NCBI GenBank assembly: GCA_002708105.2
Contig: PAOQ02000007.1
Coordinates: 5,426 to 58,748, forward strand
Direction: 5' to 3'
Origin: a bacterium
GTDB taxonomy: Bacteria; Desulfobacterota_D; UBA1144
Length of the DNA stretch: 53,323 bases
The position numbers and the translations under genes are program-made. Below are positions 14,590 through 22,331 of this stretch, piece after piece. Every line of letters begins with the position of its first letter. Positions within the stretch are counted from its first letter, which is position 1. Under the pieces are notes generated by a model, which saw only the letters and a program-made list of their open reading frames with translations, ran no database searches and was not told where the DNA came from.

Positions 14590-15659
14590 TGGCTAGTAAA
14601 GATTTTTATTCAACATTAGGCGTTTCAAAAAATTCTTCTGACGAGGAAATTAAGAAGTCATATAAAAAACTAGCATTTAAATATCATCCCGATAGAAATA
14701 AGGGTGATAAAAAATCTGAGGAAAAATTTAAAGAAATAAACGAAGCTTATCAAATATTAGGTGATCCAGAGAAAAGATCTCAATATGACGCATATGGATC
14801 ATCTGCTTTTGAAGGTGGTGGGCCGGGAGGCTTTCCAGGAGGAGGTTTTCCAGGTGGTGGTTTTGCTGGTGGCGGAATAAATATAGAAGATCTCATGGAT
14901 GAGTTTTTAGGTGGTGGCAGAGGACGAAGCAGAAGATCATCTAGGGAAAGAAATCAAAGTCCTCGAGGAAGAGATTTAAAATATGATTTAAATCTAGAGT
15001 TTGATCAAGCTGTTAAAGGTACAAAAATGAATGTCCAGGTTAGAAGGGCAAAAAGTTACAAATCTTGTAATGCTTGTGGTGGATCAGGGCAAGTAAATTA
15101 TTCTCAAGGATTTTTTTCCGTTAGTAGAGGTTGTGATTCATGTGGAGGTATTGGAGCTTTTCCTGAAGATACTGAGCATAAGTCAGTTGAAGTTAAAATT
15201 CCACCCGGTGTAGACAATGGTACACAATTAAGGATAAGGAACGAAGGTGATGTAGGATTAAACTCTGGGCCAAATGGCGACTTGTATATTAATATATCAG
15301 TCAAAGACCATCCCCTGTTTGAAAGAGAAGGTCACAACTTAGTTTGTGAAGTACCAATAAGTGTGCCAAATGCTGTGATTGGTGGAAAAATTGATATACC
15401 AACATTAGACGGTAAATCAGAATTAAAAATTCCGGCTGGAATTCAGCCCGGACAAATCATGAGGCTTAAAGGTAAGGGGATCAAGGATTTACATTCAACA
15501 GATATAGGTGATTTGTATGTAAAATTAAATATTATTATTCCTAAAAGAACTAATGCAAAACAGAAAAAGTTAATGGAAGACTTCCAAAAGGAAATTGATA
15601 AAGATGCATCTAATCCATTCTCAGACTACTTAAACACTATTAAAGATTTTTTTAGTTAA
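14589..15659 (+). CDS. dnaJ: chaperone DnaJ with a reduced zinc finger
   Basis: This Hsp40 co-chaperone stimulates DnaK ATP hydrolysis. The 356-residue protein has a J domain at residues 1-70 with HPD in KYHPDRN, a Gly/Phe-rich linker (about 75-110), a cysteine-rich region and C-terminal substrate-binding domains. The zinc region holds only two CxxCxGxG motifs, CNACGGSG near residue 159 and CDSCGGIG near residue 181, instead of four. The segment between them (QVNYSQGFFSVSRG) matches the stretch between motifs 2 and 3 of E. coli DnaJ. Motifs 1 and 4 (zinc centre I) are therefore missing and centre II is kept. Its 3' end overlaps the convergent gene by 8 nt. Confidence 0.93.
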   Translation: MASKDFYSTLGVSKNSSDEEIKKSYKKLAFKYHPDRNKGDKKSEEKFKEINEAYQILGDPEKRSQYDAYGSSAFEGGGPGGFPGGGFPGGGFAGGGINIEDLMDEFLGGGRGRSRRSSRERNQSPRGRDLKYDLNLEFDQAVKGTKMNVQVRRAKSYKSCNACGGSGQVNYSQGFFSVSRGCDSCGGIGAFPEDTEHKSVEVKIPPGVDNGTQLRIRNEGDVGLNSGPNGDLYINISVKDHPLFEREGHNLVCEVPISVPNAVIGGKIDIPTLDGKSELKIPAGIQPGQIMRLKGKGIKDLHSTDIGDLYVKLNIIIPKRTNAKQKKLMEDFQKEIDKDASNPFSDYLNTIKDFFS

Positions 15660-15930
15660 CTCCACCAGCAATAGCAGGAATTATAGATACTGTATCGTTC
15701 TCACTAATCTCAGAATCAGGGCCTTTTAGGAATCTAATATCTTCCTCGTTTATATAAATATTAATAAACTTCCTGATTTCTCCATTTTCGTCACATAGTC
15801 TGTCTTTTATTCCAGGGAACTCAGATTCAAGGTCTGCGATCATCTGAGTAACAGAGCTTGATTGCAAAGAAACCTCATCTTTTTCATTGGTAAGTCTTCT
15901 AAGAGGGGTTGGTATTTTTACTATAGCCAT
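15652..15930 (-). CDS. CysO/MoaD/ThiS-like sulfur-carrier protein
   Basis: This 92-residue ubiquitin-fold protein ends IIPAIAGGVN. The Gly-Gly at 89-90 is where sulfur carriers are adenylated and turned into a thiocarboxylate, but here two residues (Val-Asn) follow, so trimming would be needed. The body closely resembles mycobacterial CysO: LRR near the start, DLESEFPGIKDRL near 33-45, RKFINIYINEEDIRF near 53-67. TAGGAG precedes ATG. It lies 9 nt after the threonine-synthase-like gene, in the same order as PLP enzyme/sulfur-carrier pairs elsewhere. A role in carrying sulfide to a PLP enzyme is inferred. No E1-like activator or JAMM protease gene is present in the window. Confidence 0.82.
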   Translation of the reverse strand: MAIVKIPTPLRRLTNEKDEVSLQSSSVTQMIADLESEFPGIKDRLCDENGEIRKFINIYINEEDIRFLKGPDSEISENDTVSIIPAIAGGVN

Positions 15931-15939
15931 TAAATTCTC

Positions 15940-17175
15940 CTAACCAAAGATTTTATTAAAATCTTCTATCCTTGGTTCTATTATATATGGTTTTGTTATA
16001 TTATTCACTAACGGATCCTGGGTTTTTAAACCATTACCTGTTATTACTAATACAAGAGATTCATTTCTTGGTAACTTCCCAGATTCAATCATTTTCTTCG
16101 CACAAGCAAGGGTTACACCACCTGCAGTTTCAGTAAAAATACCTTCAGTTTCTGCTAATAGCTTCATTGCATCAACAATCTCAGGATCTGATACATCCTC
16201 TGAATAAGAGTTGATTGAATTTAATAAATTAATTGCATTAATACCATCTGCTGGATTACCTATTGCAAGTGACTTTGCAATCGTTTTTGGTTTTACTGGC
16301 TTAAAGACAGGCCATTTATTTTTAACTGCGGTTGAGATTGGAGAGCAGCCTGTGGCCTGAGCTCCAAATATTTTTGTATCATTTGGCTCTATAAATCCTA
16401 AGTCTTCAAACTCTTTTATAGATTTGTATATTTTAGTCAGCAATGATCCACTTGCCATGCAAACCACGATATTCTTTGGTGCTTTCCAGCCTAGTTGTTC
16501 AATTATTTCGTACCCAACCGTTTTTGAACCTTCTGCATAATATGTTCTCAGGTTAATATTCACGAAGCCCCAATTTTTTGAACCTAAAACTTCGGTGCAC
16601 AATCTGTTTACATCATCATATGCTCCATTTATAGCTATAACTTCTGATCCATATACTGAAGTTCCTATAACTTTTGATTCCTCTAAATCTGAAGGTATAA
16701 ATATAAAACTTTTTAGATTAGCTCTGGTTGCATTTGCAGCGACTGAATTAGCAAGGTTCCCAGTAGAAGCACATCCTACTGTGTCATAACCAAGCTCCTT
16801 AGCTTTAGAAAGGGCAACAGATACAACTCTGTCTTTAAATGACAGGGTTGGGAAAGAAACGCCATCATTTTTTATGTATAATTCATCAACGCCTAATTTT
16901 TTACCAAGATTTTCTGCTTTTATAAGTGGAGTAAAACCAGAGTTTAATCCTACAGTTGGTGCAGAATCTAATGGTAATAGTTCTCTGTATCTCCAAAGAT
17001 TTTTATCTCTTTTAAGTATTTTTTCAATTGTAAGATCCTTCTTTATTTTTTTATAGTCATAATTGACCTCTAATGGCCCAAAGCAGAATTCACAAACATA
17101 ATTTGCTTTTTTTTCATATTCTTTACCACAATTTTTGTCGGCACAACGAAGGTTTACCACACATGAGTTAGACAT
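15940..17175 (-). CDS. thrC: threonine synthase-like PLP enzyme
   Basis: This 411-residue fold-type II PLP enzyme would normally convert O-phosphohomoserine to threonine. The N-terminus holds cysteines at 5, 11, 16, 28 and 31 (including CEFC), a rubredoxin-like zinc knuckle common in this ThrC subfamily. The PLP lysine is K114 in TLSFKDR, followed by the substrate/PLP stretch CASTGNLANSVAANA; TGNGLK lies near the C-terminus. A SAM-II-type riboswitch precedes it, AGGAG lies 6 nt before ATG, and a CysO-like sulfur carrier follows. The SAM control and the partner raise the possibility that it uses protein-bound sulfur to make homocysteine or cysteine. Ordinary ThrC remains the default. Confidence 0.85.
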   Translation of the reverse strand: MSNSCVVNLRCADKNCGKEYEKKANYVCEFCFGPLEVNYDYKKIKKDLTIEKILKRDKNLWRYRELLPLDSAPTVGLNSGFTPLIKAENLGKKLGVDELYIKNDGVSFPTLSFKDRVVSVALSKAKELGYDTVGCASTGNLANSVAANATRANLKSFIFIPSDLEESKVIGTSVYGSEVIAINGAYDDVNRLCTEVLGSKNWGFVNINLRTYYAEGSKTVGYEIIEQLGWKAPKNIVVCMASGSLLTKIYKSIKEFEDLGFIEPNDTKIFGAQATGCSPISTAVKNKWPVFKPVKPKTIAKSLAIGNPADGINAINLLNSINSYSEDVSDPEIVDAMKLLAETEGIFTETAGGVTLACAKKMIESGKLPRNESLVLVITGNGLKTQDPLVNNITKPYIIEPRIEDFNKIFG

Positions 17176-17206
17176 AAAAAACTCCTAAAATTTAAATGTA
17201 ACTCAA

Positions 17207-17240
17207 GAGGAAAGACATATAGGCAAGAATGTCCTTTCTC
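17207..17240 (-). promoter_or_regulatory. leader hairpin downstream of the SAM riboswitch
   Basis: On the minus strand GAGAAAGGACAT (17240-17229) can pair with ATGTCTTTCCTC (17218-17207), with 11 of 12 positions pairing including one G-U, around a 10-nt loop. No U-tract follows, so it is not a standard intrinsic terminator. It lies between the aptamer and the AGGAG of thrC, and may be part of the expression platform. Just after it GAGTTA (17204-17199) could pair with TAACTC (17278-17273) inside the aptamer loop, a possible alternative fold. Confidence 0.55.
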
Positions 17241-17290
17241 TGTTTAGCAGTTATTTTATGTCGCTGCAATTAGAGTTAAATGACGACATT
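17240..17290 (-). promoter_or_regulatory. SAM-II-type riboswitch upstream of thrC
   Basis: Read on the minus strand, the leader has the SAM-II layout. P1 ATGTCG (17289-17284) pairs with CGACAT (17263-17258). The loop carries ATTTAAC and then ATTGCAG, and the 3' side carries the conserved GCTAAA (17248-17243). GCAG (17267-17264) pairs with CTGC (17250-17247) to close the pseudoknot directly against P1. These elements and their spacing match what I recall of the SAM-II/SAM-V family (T-loop ATTTAAC, ATTGCA, GCTAAA). The expected effect is lower expression of thrC and the sulfur carrier when SAM is plentiful. Confidence 0.75.
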
Positions 17291-17345
17291 AATAATTATA
17301 GTATTAATTTATAAAAAAAACAATAAAGTCTAATTATTAAAGAGG

Positions 17346-17357: not shown

Positions 17358-18164
17358 ATGTATGAAAGTATAATTGACGACAATTTTATAATTTACAGAT
17401 TTTTGGTTAAGAATAGCGATAGAAACGTTAATTATCTTATAGCATGTAAGAAAACACTTAATTGCGTCATTATCGATCCACTAGACAAGGATGGAATTGA
17501 AGAAATAATAAATAATAATTCTCTTAATCCAATCTATGTTTTTAATACTCATGCACATCCTGATCACATAAAAGAAAATAGCTTTTTTCTAAATAAATAT
17601 AATTGTAAATTGCTAGCGCACATTGATTGTAAAAACTTGTTTGAATTTGAATTTCAGAATGTCTTTGAAAATGATGTAATCAAACTCGGTGATTTGAACC
17701 TTAAAGTTTTGCATACTCCAGGACATTGTCATGAACACATATCTCTCATATTAGGAGAATACTTTTTATGTGGTGATTTAATTTTTAATCTTGGTGTAGG
17801 AAATGTAAAATTTCGGGGAGATGTTTCTATGTTGTTTAGAACTATAACCCATAAGGTAAAAAATCTTCCAGATGATTTAAAGCTATTACCAGGTCACGAT
17901 TACCTTGCGAATAACATTAACTTTTTACAATCAATTTATTCTGATTCAGAAGTTATTGACGATGAATTGTCTGATTTGTTAAATCAATTCAGTTCGGAGA
18001 AGCTAAGCCCAATTTTTGATTTAAAATTTGAGAAAAAATATAATCCATTTTTAAGAATAGATGAGTTTACCTTTTTAGATTTTTTAGATAAAAAAGATTT
18101 ATTTAAGAATGAGAATATTGAATTTAGATTTAGATTATTGAGGCAACTAAGAGATGAGCACTAA
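17358..18164 (+). CDS. metallo-beta-lactamase-fold hydrolase (glyoxalase II-like)
   Basis: This 268-residue protein has the metal-binding signature THAHPDH at residues 64-70 and further ligands in [17 protein letters not shown] and LLPGHDY. This matches hydroxyacylglutathione hydrolase and persulfide dioxygenase relatives, which act on thioesters or persulfides. The C-terminal 80 residues are charged and not diagnostic. Its end overlaps the metH start by 11 nt, so the two are co-expressed, which hints at a sulfur substrate. Transcription diverges from the SAM-controlled thrC gene. The exact reaction is not known. Confidence 0.82.
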
Positions 18165-21100
18165 ATTAACTAAAACTAAAGTCTTTTCATATTTAGATGA
18201 GTTATCGTCAGAAAGAATAGTCTATATGGACGGTGCAATGGGAACAATGATACAAAAGTATCGTTTTGAAGAGAGTGACTATAGAGGATTAAAGTTTCAA
18301 AATCATAAAATAGATTTAAAGGGAAACAACGATATTTTAAATATAACAAATATGGAAGCCATAAAAGATATCCATAAGCAGTACATCTTGTCGGGTTCTG
18401 ATATTATTGAAACTAATACATTTAATGGTACTTCGATAGCACAGTATGATTACAATTTAGAAAATTATGCTGCAGATATTAATATATTTGGAGTAAGAGC
18501 TGTTAAAGAAGCTATTGCTGAAACTTCGGACATGGTGAATGGAAGAAAGATTTTAATTGCTGGTGCATTAGGCCCAACTAATAGAACTGCATCAATTTCT
18601 CCAGATGTTGAAGATCCCAGCGCAAGAAATGTTTCTTTTGATGAACTCTCAGAAGCTTATTATAATCAAGCTAAAACTCTATACGAGTCTGGCGTTGATA
18701 TTCTATTGCCTGAGACTACTTTTGATACTTTAAATTTAAAGGCAGCTATATTTGGGATTCGCCAATTGTTTAATGAGGTATCTATTGAGCTACCTCTCTT
18801 TTTATCTGTAACTTTTTCTGATAAATCTGGAAGGACACTTTCTGGTCAAACTATAGAGGCATTTTGGGAGTCTATTAGACATTCTAATCCCTACGCAGTA
18901 GGTATGAATTGTGGCCTTGGAGCCGCTTCTCTTTATGACTACATGAAGACTCTCTCTAATGTTGCTGATTCGAAAATTTTTTGTTATCCAAATGCCGGCT
19001 TACCAAATCCCTTATCTGAAACCGGATATGATGAGACTCCTGATATGACGGCAAAAGATCTTGAATTATTTGCAAAAGAGAGCCTTGTTAATTTTGTAGG
19101 TGGATGCTGTGGTACCACCCCTGATCATATACAAGCAATAGTACAAAAATTAAGTGAATATAAGGGGAGAGCTAATTCTACAAGAGATAGTTTTTCAACG
19201 TATAGCGGTTTAGAACTATTAAAAAAAGATGATATTAATAATTTTCTATTGGTTGGCGAAAGAAGTAATGTGACAGGATCACCTAAGTTTTCAAGGCTTA
19301 TAAAAGATGGAGATTTTGAAGGTGCATTAGAAATAGCTAAGCAACAAGTTGAGAACGGTGCGCATATTATAGATATTAATTTCGATGAAGGATTAATAGA
19401 CAGTGAGGCATGCATGATAAAATTTTTAAATCTTGTTGCCTCTGAGCCTGATATATCAAGAGTTCCAATAATGATTGATAGCTCTAAATGGTCTGTTATT
19501 GAAGAAGGTTTAAAATGTATTCAAGGTAGAGGAATAGTAAATTCTATAAGTTTAAAAGAAGGGGAGGAAGAATTTCTTAAACAAGCAGAAAAGATATTGG
19601 AATATGGTGCCTCTGTTGTGGTAATGGCTTTTGATGAATCTGGACAAGCAACAGAGACTGATCATAAAGTTGCTATATCTAAAAGAGCTTATAATATTCT
19701 GGTTAACAAAGTTGGATTTTCTCCCGAAGATATAATTTTTGATTCCAATATTTTAACGATTGGAACAGGAATAGATGAACATAAAAATTACGCTGTTAAT
19801 TTCTTAGATGCGATACCTCTAATAAAAAAAGAATGTCCTGGATCCTTAACAAGTGGAGGTTTAAGTAATCTTTCTTTTGCTTTTAGAGGAAATAATAAAG
19901 TAAGAGAGGCTATGCATTCTGTGTTTTTATTTCATGCAATTAACAAAGGTTTAGATATGGCAATTGTGAACGCTGGAATGTTGGAGGTTTATGAGGAGAT
20001 TGATAAAGATTTGTTACATATTATTGAGAACGTAATCTTTAATAAATCAGATGATTCAACTGAAGTTTTGATTAATTATGCAAGCAAGCTTACTTCAAAT
20101 CAATCTAGCCAGGAAAAAGAAGAAGAATGGATGAGTTTTGATTTAGAGAAAAGAATCGCACACCAAGTAATAAAAGGTTTAACGTCAAATATTGAAAATG
20201 ACGTTGAGGAAGCTAGATTAAAATATACTTCCCCTCTAGAAGTAATAGAGGGCCCATTAATGGATGGAATGAAAATTGTAGGAACTCTATTTGGCGAAGG
20301 AAAAATGTTTTTGCCTCAAGTAGTTAAAAGCGCTAGATCTATGAAAAAAGCAGTTAATTATTTAGAGCCATTTATGGAAAAGGATAAAAATAATGTTTCT
20401 GGAATTGGAAAAATTCTAATAGCCACTGTTAAAGGCGATGTTCATGATATTGGTAAAAATATAGTTTCTGTTGTTGCAAGATGTAATGGATATCAAGTAG
20501 AGGATATGGGAGTAATGATCTCATGCGCAGATATTATTGATAGAGCTAAGGATTTAAAGCCAGACATAATTGGACTAAGCGGACTTATTACACCGTCATT
20601 AGATGAAATGATTACAAATGTTTCAGAGTTTGAAAAAAATGGGATTAACATCCCGGTTCTAATTGGTGGAGCAACTACAAGTAAAGCTCATACAGCATTA
20701 AAAATTGCACCAAAGTATCCTAATGAAGTAGTTGTCCATGTTCCAGATGCTTCATTAGTTGTAGGAGTTTGCAAAGATTTGTTAAGTCCAAAAAATAATA
20801 CTGAATTTAAAGATAATATAAAGAAAAGCCAGGTTGAGTTTGCTTCAAACTATAACAAAAATAAAAAAATAAAATTTCTATCTCTAGATGAGGCAAGAAA
20901 CAATAAGCTAAAAATAAATTTTAAGAAAATAAATAATAAAATTAATGATTATTCAGAAAAAAAATGGGAGTTTGATATTAATGAGATTATTCAATATATT
21001 GATTGGTCACCTTTTTTCTGGACATGGGAGCTTAAAGGTGTTTATCCTAATATCTTCCGTAATAAAAAATATGGCACCCAGGCTAAAGAATTATTTATAG

Positions 21101-21828
21101 ATGCAGAAAAAATTTTAAAAAGAATGATTTCCGAAAAAGTTTTGTCATTAAAGGGTTTGTCAAAAATATGGAATGCATACTCCATTGATGAGGACATTGT
21201 TTTAATTGATAAGAATGGAATAGAAATTGAAACATTAAATTTTCTTAGACAGCAGGCTGATAAAAGTACAAAAAATTCTAAATACTATTGTCTCTCAGAT
21301 TTTGTATCAGATAAGAAATCTGATGATGATATATTGGGAGCCTTTGCTGTTACTGCAGGGAAAGAAGTTGAAGAATATGCCTCTAGTTTTGAGTTAAAGG
21401 GGGATGATTACTCATCTATAATGATTAAAGCTATAGGAGATAGATTGGCTGAAGCATGTTCAGAGTTTCTACATTATAAAATTCGGATCTTAAATGGTGA
21501 AAACGAAGATTTTAATCTTAAATCCTTAATAAAAGAGGAGTATTCTGGAATAAGGCCTGCGCATGGGTATCCATCCATTCCTGATCACTCTGAAAAAAGT
21601 AAAATATGGTCATTGCTAGAAGTAGAGAAAAATATTGGTGCCTCGTTAACAGAAAATTTTGCTTTAAATCCTCCTTCCTCAATTTGCGGTCTTTATTTCT
21701 TTAACCCAGAAGCTAGATACTTTAATCTAGGAAAAATTAATAATTCGCAATTTGAGATATATGCAAACAAAAAAGGTTATAATATTGAAAGGATGAGAAG
21801 TTTGCTTCAAAATAATTTAATAGATTAA
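18154..21828 (+). CDS. metH: cobalamin-dependent methionine synthase
   Basis: MetH moves a methyl group from methyltetrahydrofolate to homocysteine through cobalamin. The 1224 residues contain all four modules. The homocysteine domain has zinc cysteines in GMNCGLG (about 252) and GGCCGTT (about 316). The pterin-binding domain includes [12 protein letters not shown] (about 370) and IDINFDEG. The B12 domain has [10 protein letters not shown] with the cobalt-ligating histidine near 761. The C-terminal reactivation domain has [15 protein letters not shown] near 1143, which binds SAM. The organism therefore needs or makes cobalamin. It overlaps the gene before it by 11 nt and the gene after it by the TAATG junction. 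Confidence 0.97.
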
Positions 21829-22331
21829 TGACTATAGATGATTTATTAAAATTAAAGAATGATACTTCAAGTTTAACAGATGAATGGGTTGATTCTGCAA
21901 ATAACGCTTTAGAAGTTTTAAATGATGCTAAGCTAAATGATGATGATTTAAAGAATATCTTTCAATCATCTTCATCTCCAAAGGTTTTTAAAAACTTTGT
22001 CAGATTATTATACTCAGAATCAAAAAAGCCAAATATACCAGTAAAATCATTCGATAAAATAAAGCAATATTCAAAAGGCTTATCATATGATGGTAGGGCG
22101 AAAAATTATACAATTAAAGAATATTCAATTTCATCTTGGCTCGATTCAATTGATGCTGTATCTGATTGGTTGGACGAGAATGAATTGGAAGCAGATCTCT
22201 CATCTATTGTTGACTATATCGCTTGCTCAACAGAAACAGTTAATCTTGCATCAGATAATCTAGAACTTGTGGAGATTGTATCTGATTTCTTAAAAGATTT
22301 TGGTTTTGAAAGATCTTTGAAAATAAAATAG
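21828..22331 (+). CDS. hypothetical protein coupled to metH
   Basis: I do not recognise this 167-residue protein. It is acidic and looks wholly helical, with no signal peptide, membrane segment or cysteine cluster. One Cys occurs near residue 133 (IACSTE). A serine/aspartate-rich first third is followed by a segment with SISSWLDSIDAVSDWLDENELE near residue 103. The ATG lies inside the metH stop codon (TAATG), so its translation should follow that of MetH. A role linked to MetH or to cobalamin/folate chemistry is possible from position only. Confidence 0.7.
   Translation: MTIDDLLKLKNDTSSLTDEWVDSANNALEVLNDAKLNDDDLKNIFQSSSSPKVFKNFVRLLYSESKKPNIPVKSFDKIKQYSKGLSYDGRAKNYTIKEYSISSWLDSIDAVSDWLDENELEADLSSIVDYIACSTETVNLASDNLELVEIVSDFLKDFGFERSLKIK

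Follow-up and report, generated by a model that had tools for sequence, protein, structure and literature searches.

A ubiquitin-like protein can supply the sulfur of an amino acid: in the HcyS system of Wolinella, a ubiquitin-like carrier, an E1 and a JAMM protease deliver sulfur for homocysteine, and Krishnamoorthy and Begley reportedly described, in 2011, a protein thiocarboxylate-dependent methionine biosynthesis in Wolinella succinogenes built from HcyS, HcyF, HcyD and MetY. Threonine synthase (ThrC) carries out a gamma-elimination from O-phosphohomoserine, leaving a PLP-bound vinylglycine-type intermediate to which water adds at the beta carbon; phosphohomoserine is also the point at which plants branch homocysteine from threonine. 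PMC6225789 cites the protein thiocarboxylate-dependent methionine biosynthesis of Wolinella succinogenes (Krishnamoorthy and Begley 2011). The CysM–CysO–Mec system of Mycobacterium serves cysteine synthesis (PMC12910592); PMC1779556 lists it as operon type 4d. The DUF39/NIL-ferredoxin route to homocysteine involves NIL domains, and one or more pathways to homocysteine are stated to be still undiscovered (PMC5764234).

The window analyzed here, a stretch of 53,323 nucleotides from a bacterium of the UBA1144 lineage, holds a ThrC-like gene followed nine bases later by the gene of a CysO-like sulfur carrier, both on the minus strand. The two reading frames are present as the initial annotation had proposed: profile searches match the enzyme to PALP (PF00291, E 2.6e-66) and to TIGR00260 (thrC, 280 bits, exceeding the cut-off of the model), and the carrier to ThiS (PF02597, E 2.9e-15). 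In the open-access literature, searched for ThrC together with a sulfur carrier or a SAM riboswitch, no description of the pair was found, and threonine synthase is not mentioned in the survey of carrier operons by Iyer and colleagues. The genes of the locus are the following:

15652..15930, minus strand: CysO-like ThiS/MoaD sulfur carrier, 92 aa, C-terminus ...AIAGG-VN
15940..17175, minus strand: ThrC-like fold-type II PLP enzyme, 411 aa, the proposed carrier-dependent homocysteine synthase
17358..18164, plus strand: MBL-fold hydrolase, glyoxalase II-like (PF00753 and HAGH_C)
18154..21828, plus strand: MetH, cobalamin-dependent methionine synthase, an open reading frame recognized by eye; divergent neighbor of the pair

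Distribution and Neighborhood of the Pair

To establish how general the arrangement is, we used loci retrieved with the ThrC-like protein alone as the query. In all 80 related loci the carrier adjoins the ThrC-like gene (81/81 with the window); since the carrier played no part in the retrieval, the pairing is far beyond chance. The 80 loci span five or more phyla and come from Nitrospirota, Nitrospinota, Planctomycetota (Scalindua), Verrucomicrobiota, a Mariprofundaceae bacterium (a zetaproteobacterium) and the window's own group, and the pair is also encoded by the actinomycete Nonomuraea gerenzanensis. A haloarchaeal plasmid thrC with 36% identity was rejected as a member, as it has no adjoining carrier and carries TGNA instead of TGNL. 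Within the window's phylum, a carrier homologue was found in all 43 genomes of at least 90% completeness.

The divergent arrangement of the pair and MetH recurs in three related loci (L014, L017 and L020), in which, as in the window, an MBL-fold protein lies between the riboswitch and metH. A 167-aa open reading frame (21828-22331) without a Pfam or NCBIfam match adjoins the end of metH, and is seen in L014 and L017 as well. The Nitrospira cluster has the order CysK/M, MoeB, ThrC-like enzyme, carrier, NIL-domain protein, MoeB, JAMM. Besides Nitrospira, a Mariprofundaceae bacterium and a Verrucomicrobiota metagenome-assembled genome (MAG) have a small NIL-domain protein with the pair; such a protein adjoins the pair in L025 and L027 and lies close to it in L082 and L090. 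These proteins are possibly homocysteine- or methionine-binding partners of the pair.

L025:2577-2816, L084:7496-7735 and L027:6306-6659: NIL-domain proteins

It should also be noted that one assembly (NAT509, G050) holds the whole pair with its riboswitch twice, on separate contigs (L016 and L018), which may reflect a strain mixture or a duplication.

Two Classes of SAM Riboswitch Precede the Pair

Control by SAM had been proposed for the window, and a SAM-II-like aptamer is indeed found upstream of the pair.

17223..17297, minus strand: SAM-II (SAM_alpha, RF00521) aptamer, upstream of the pair
17206..17241, minus strand: hairpin after the aptamer, formed in part by the pseudoknot's AGAG strand (from folding the RNAs of five relatives)

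The aptamer scores 30.8 bits (E 8.4e-5 in a 1.1-kb search), and across the window and its relatives scores are 27-33 bits, as against an Rfam gathering score of 36; the five close relatives each have it in that position. With a covariance model built from the family itself, each of the 12 regions upstream of the pair in the window's family (the window and L212-L222) yields SAM-II at 77-103 bits. The core of P1 and the pseudoknot are paired in every family sequence, two outer P1 pairs being broken in some, and the core motifs AUUU, UUGCA and GCUAAA are conserved. The pseudoknot reads CUCU/AGAG where the Rfam consensus has GGCC/GGCC, with pairing preserved. The stems are near-invariant within the family, and covariation therefore speaks neither for nor against SAM-II. 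Folding suggests the hairpin at 17206-17241 as a possible expression platform: through the AGAG strand that it shares with the aptamer, SAM binding might free a strand covering the ribosome site.

In some other phyla the pair is preceded by a different aptamer. SAM-I lies directly before it in all 13 Planctomycetota, Verrucomicrobiota and Mariprofundaceae loci (71-88 bits) and in Nonomuraea (69 bits). The scanned loci of Nitrospirota and Nitrospinota showed no SAM riboswitch ahead of the pair, and neither did the sampled families of the window's phylum other than its own (f1). Because two unrelated SAM-sensing RNA classes precede the same gene pair, the sequences argue strongly for a function in supplying methionine.

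The Paired Enzyme Is a Distinct Descendant of ThrC

An AlphaFold model of the ThrC-like enzyme (pLDDT 84.7) has only threonine synthases as its best PDB matches in Foldseek, and 81/81 paired enzymes, the window's included, retain SFKDR, the motif of the PLP lysine. In the phylogenetic tree, the paired enzymes form one separate clade on a long stem with a support of 100/100. An alignment of 82 paired with 18 conventional ThrC sequences revealed about 30 positions which are fixed or nearly fixed in each set yet differ between them. In Thermus numbering, the changes from conventional to paired enzymes include T88 to Leu, F134 to Tyr, S155 to Asn, N157 to Arg, R160 to Tyr, N188 to Ser, N191 to Leu, A194 to Lys and P288 to Thr, with further fixed differences at Q164 and G187. 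Judged from sequence, the paired enzyme is one in which the ThrC fold is retained and the active site rebuilt; as the clade is separate and its active-site positions are unlike those of conventional ThrC, it probably does not act as a threonine synthase. Several of the swapped positions are, we assume, part of the pocket that holds the substrate phosphate in ThrC, and given these changes the substrate may not be phosphohomoserine.

The zinc knuckle noted in the initial annotation is not a universal feature of paired enzymes, one Cys being replaced by Asp in Verrucomicrobiota. A Pfam match to NinF at the N-terminus is below the cut-off and was dismissed as a zinc-ribbon look-alike.

The Carrier and the Sulfur-Activating Machinery

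The solved structures closest to the carrier are of the CysO type (4n6e, 71 bits; 3dwg, Mycobacterium tuberculosis CysO, 69 bits); these matches show similarity to CysO. The window's carrier does not stop at Gly-Gly; it runs two residues further (GG-Val-Asn) and so would need trimming. The motif AIAGG is present in 81/81 carriers, 41 of which stop at GG and 40 of which have a tail. The tails are unrelated, freely variable and 1-38 residues long (L014-L093). In a set of twelve relatives, only genomes with a JAMM protease had tailed carriers (Fisher p 0.01), all four genomes without JAMM being Verrucomicrobiota. The window's genome encodes a ThiS of its own, apart from the carrier, in a thiO-thiS-thiG operon (L003).

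Of the partners that a thiocarboxylate system would call for, the MoeB/ThiF-like E1 anticipated for the window's genome was found as a single protein, a MoeB-rhodanese fusion (L001). The anticipated JAMM protease is missing from the assembly (908,595 bases, 88% complete) but present in relatives: neither a Prok-JAB (JAMM) protease nor CysK/CysM was found in the window's genome, and all eight sampled relatives of its family (8/8) encode JAMM directly beside CysM. We accordingly rejected a biological loss, and these genes of the window's genome probably fall in missing sequence. In several other families the CysM-JAMM neighbors gain MoeB. No Prok-JAB protease was found in four pair-holding Verrucomicrobiota genomes. 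Because the CysM-JAMM(-MoeB) operons of the window's phylum have no carrier of their own, gene content suggests that cysteine synthesis by CysM probably draws on the paired carrier too.

Standard Homocysteine Routes and a Second ThrC

To see which other routes to homocysteine are encoded, we searched for PF01053 (MetB/C/Y/Z), MetX and DUF39 (PF01837). The window's genome gave only weak partial matches to PF01053, typical of other aminotransferase-fold enzymes. A metX/metY or metB/metC route, which the initial annotation had named as evidence against its proposal, was found neither there nor in 8/8 relatives by the MetX and PF01053 searches. Neither a PF01053 enzyme nor MetX was found in 20 of the 36 pair-holding genomes sampled, and DUF39 was found in none of the 36; the ordinary explanation through MetX/MetY, MetB/C or DUF39 was searched for and rejected as absent. 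Among the 20 are 9/9 of the window's family, two genomes in a single contig (G012, G027) and that of Nitrospira moscoviensis, an autotroph grown on mineral medium, whose genome is complete; in the Nitrospiraceae, the family of N. moscoviensis, no PF01053 enzyme was found in 106 of 118 genomes. As MetB, MetC, MetY and MetZ all belong to PF01053, the sulfur-insertion step is, as far as gene content tells, without a known enzyme in genomes lacking PF01053 and DUF39. Pair-holding genomes of four other families (f2, f3, f4 and f8) also encode MetX and MetY, and there the pair is not the sole homocysteine route. In Scalindua (G059:C18:25300-28400; L168, L095), a PF01053 gene adjoins a CysK/CBS-like gene in the absence of MetX, and looks like a gene of reverse transsulfuration rather than of homocysteine synthesis.

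An ordinary second thrC, which had been predicted, is present in the window's genome: a plant-type ThrC (L005, TIGR00260 216 bits). Nitrospira moscoviensis likewise has a second ThrC (L143, 352 aa, 327 bits), and an ordinary ThrC paralogue was found in 12 of 13 other genomes in which the PALP proteins were typed, the exception being a partial MAG.

A Proposed Route to Homocysteine

Comparison between genomes establishes the pairing, the SAM riboswitches, the second ThrC, the missing routes, the altered active site and the E1, JAMM and CysM partners; from these a function of the pair in sulfur amino acid metabolism is well supported, and we infer the sulfur donor, the substrate and the release step. 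The best explanation, which we hold to be reasonably probable, is that the operon makes homocysteine from the carrier thiocarboxylate and an activated homoserine. The earlier idea of homocysteine production for MetH gains from the second thrC, the lack of MetX and of MetY/B/C/Z, the E1, the JAMM of the relatives and the SAM riboswitches, while its chemistry stays conjectural.

In the proposed sequence, JAMM would trim any carrier tail past GG, and the MoeB-rhodanese E1 would activate the C-terminal Gly-Gly of the trimmed carrier, yielding the thiocarboxylate. The ThrC-like enzyme would convert an activated homoserine, most likely O-phosphohomoserine, which is the presumed substrate, to a PLP-bound vinylglycine-type intermediate, and the thiocarboxylate sulfur would add at the gamma carbon, in place of the water that ThrC adds at the beta carbon. 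The carrier thiocarboxylate is proposed as the nucleophile by analogy with CysM–CysO and HcyS, and its chemistry with a ThrC-like enzyme is likewise putative. Homocysteine would then be freed from the carrier, probably by JAMM, and pass to MetH; high SAM would turn the operon off through the riboswitch, and the same carrier would probably feed CysM for cysteine.

Other readings accommodate part of these observations. The replaced phosphate-pocket positions, the Verrucomicrobiota without a recognizable JAMM, and the lack of any CysO-like protein besides the paired carrier for use by the CysM-JAMM operon would all fit a pair that makes homocysteine with free sulfide or persulfide as the donor, or from acyl-homoserine or homoserine itself, the carrier being a helper or mainly that of CysM. 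We consider this unlikely, given that the linkage of the ThrC-like enzyme to the carrier is strict (81/81 loci) and stronger than any linkage of CysM to a carrier in the same genomes, and that 20 genomes lack MetX as a source of acyl-homoserine. The pair could alternatively be a second cysteine or related beta-replacement system, in which a carrier-dependent cysteine synthase acts on O-phosphoserine and SAM is a general sulfur signal; however, CysK/CysM is already there in one or two copies in the relatives, the step that lacks an enzyme leads to homocysteine and not to cysteine, and both the SAM riboswitch control and the MetH neighborhood point to methionine, which makes this improbable despite the existence of cysteate synthase as a known ThrC relative and the resemblance of the carrier to M. 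tuberculosis CysO, which serves CysM and O-phosphoserine (PMC12910592).

That the enzyme is an ordinary threonine synthase isozyme, linked by chance to a carrier for cysteine, thiamine or tRNA sulfur, is very hard to credit: a conventional ThrC is also present, otherwise fixed ThrC positions are changed, ThiS has its own thiamine operon, and a threonine gene would hardly be expected under an OFF-type SAM riboswitch, even if the fold is that of ThrC and the TIGR00260 score is above the cut-off. Homocysteine synthesis from the carrier thiocarboxylate can also be put in a broader form, on which our judgment is evenly balanced: a distinct and widespread pathway in which a ThrC-derived fold-type II enzyme joins O-phosphohomoserine and a protein thiocarboxylate, forming the sole homocysteine route of Nitrospira nitrite oxidizers and of streamlined marine bacteria and branching from threonine at phosphohomoserine.

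For many genomes, among them those of cultured autotrophs, the searches turned up none of the homocysteine-making enzymes looked for, and the pair is a concrete, directly testable candidate to fill this gap in several phyla, the organisms that have it ranging from a marine bacterium to nitrite oxidizers and actinomycetes. If true, the proposal would correct many annotations as threonine synthase and wrong predictions of methionine auxotrophy, and would add a homocysteine branch to the biology of ubiquitin-like sulfur carriers.

Comparison with Known Systems

The pair, placed under a methionine-sensing RNA switch, points to a previously undescribed way of making homocysteine, which shares parts with each of four known systems. 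Like the Wolinella HcyS system, it has a ubiquitin-like carrier with GG and E1 and JAMM partners; the PLP enzyme in Wolinella is MetY, a fold-type I protein (PF01053) acting on acylhomoserine, whereas here it is a fold-type II descendant of ThrC (PF00291) in a genome without PF01053 and MetX. The NIL-domain protein that adjoins the pair in Nitrospira and in some other organisms recalls the DUF39/NIL-ferredoxin route, from which the pair-holding genomes differ in that none of the 36 encodes DUF39. With Thermus (1uim), Bacillus subtilis (6cgq) and Arabidopsis (1e5x) ThrC the enzyme shares the fold, the PLP lysine in SFKDR and the STGN loop, and it is set apart by fixed active-site substitutions, by the linkage to a carrier and by the coexistence of a true ThrC in the genome. 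With CysM–CysO–Mec of Mycobacterium it has in common a CysO-like carrier, the relatives also holding a CysM-JAMM operon; the CysM of these relatives is, however, encoded in that separate operon, and the PLP enzyme linked to the carrier is ThrC-like, SAM-controlled and the proposed maker of homocysteine.
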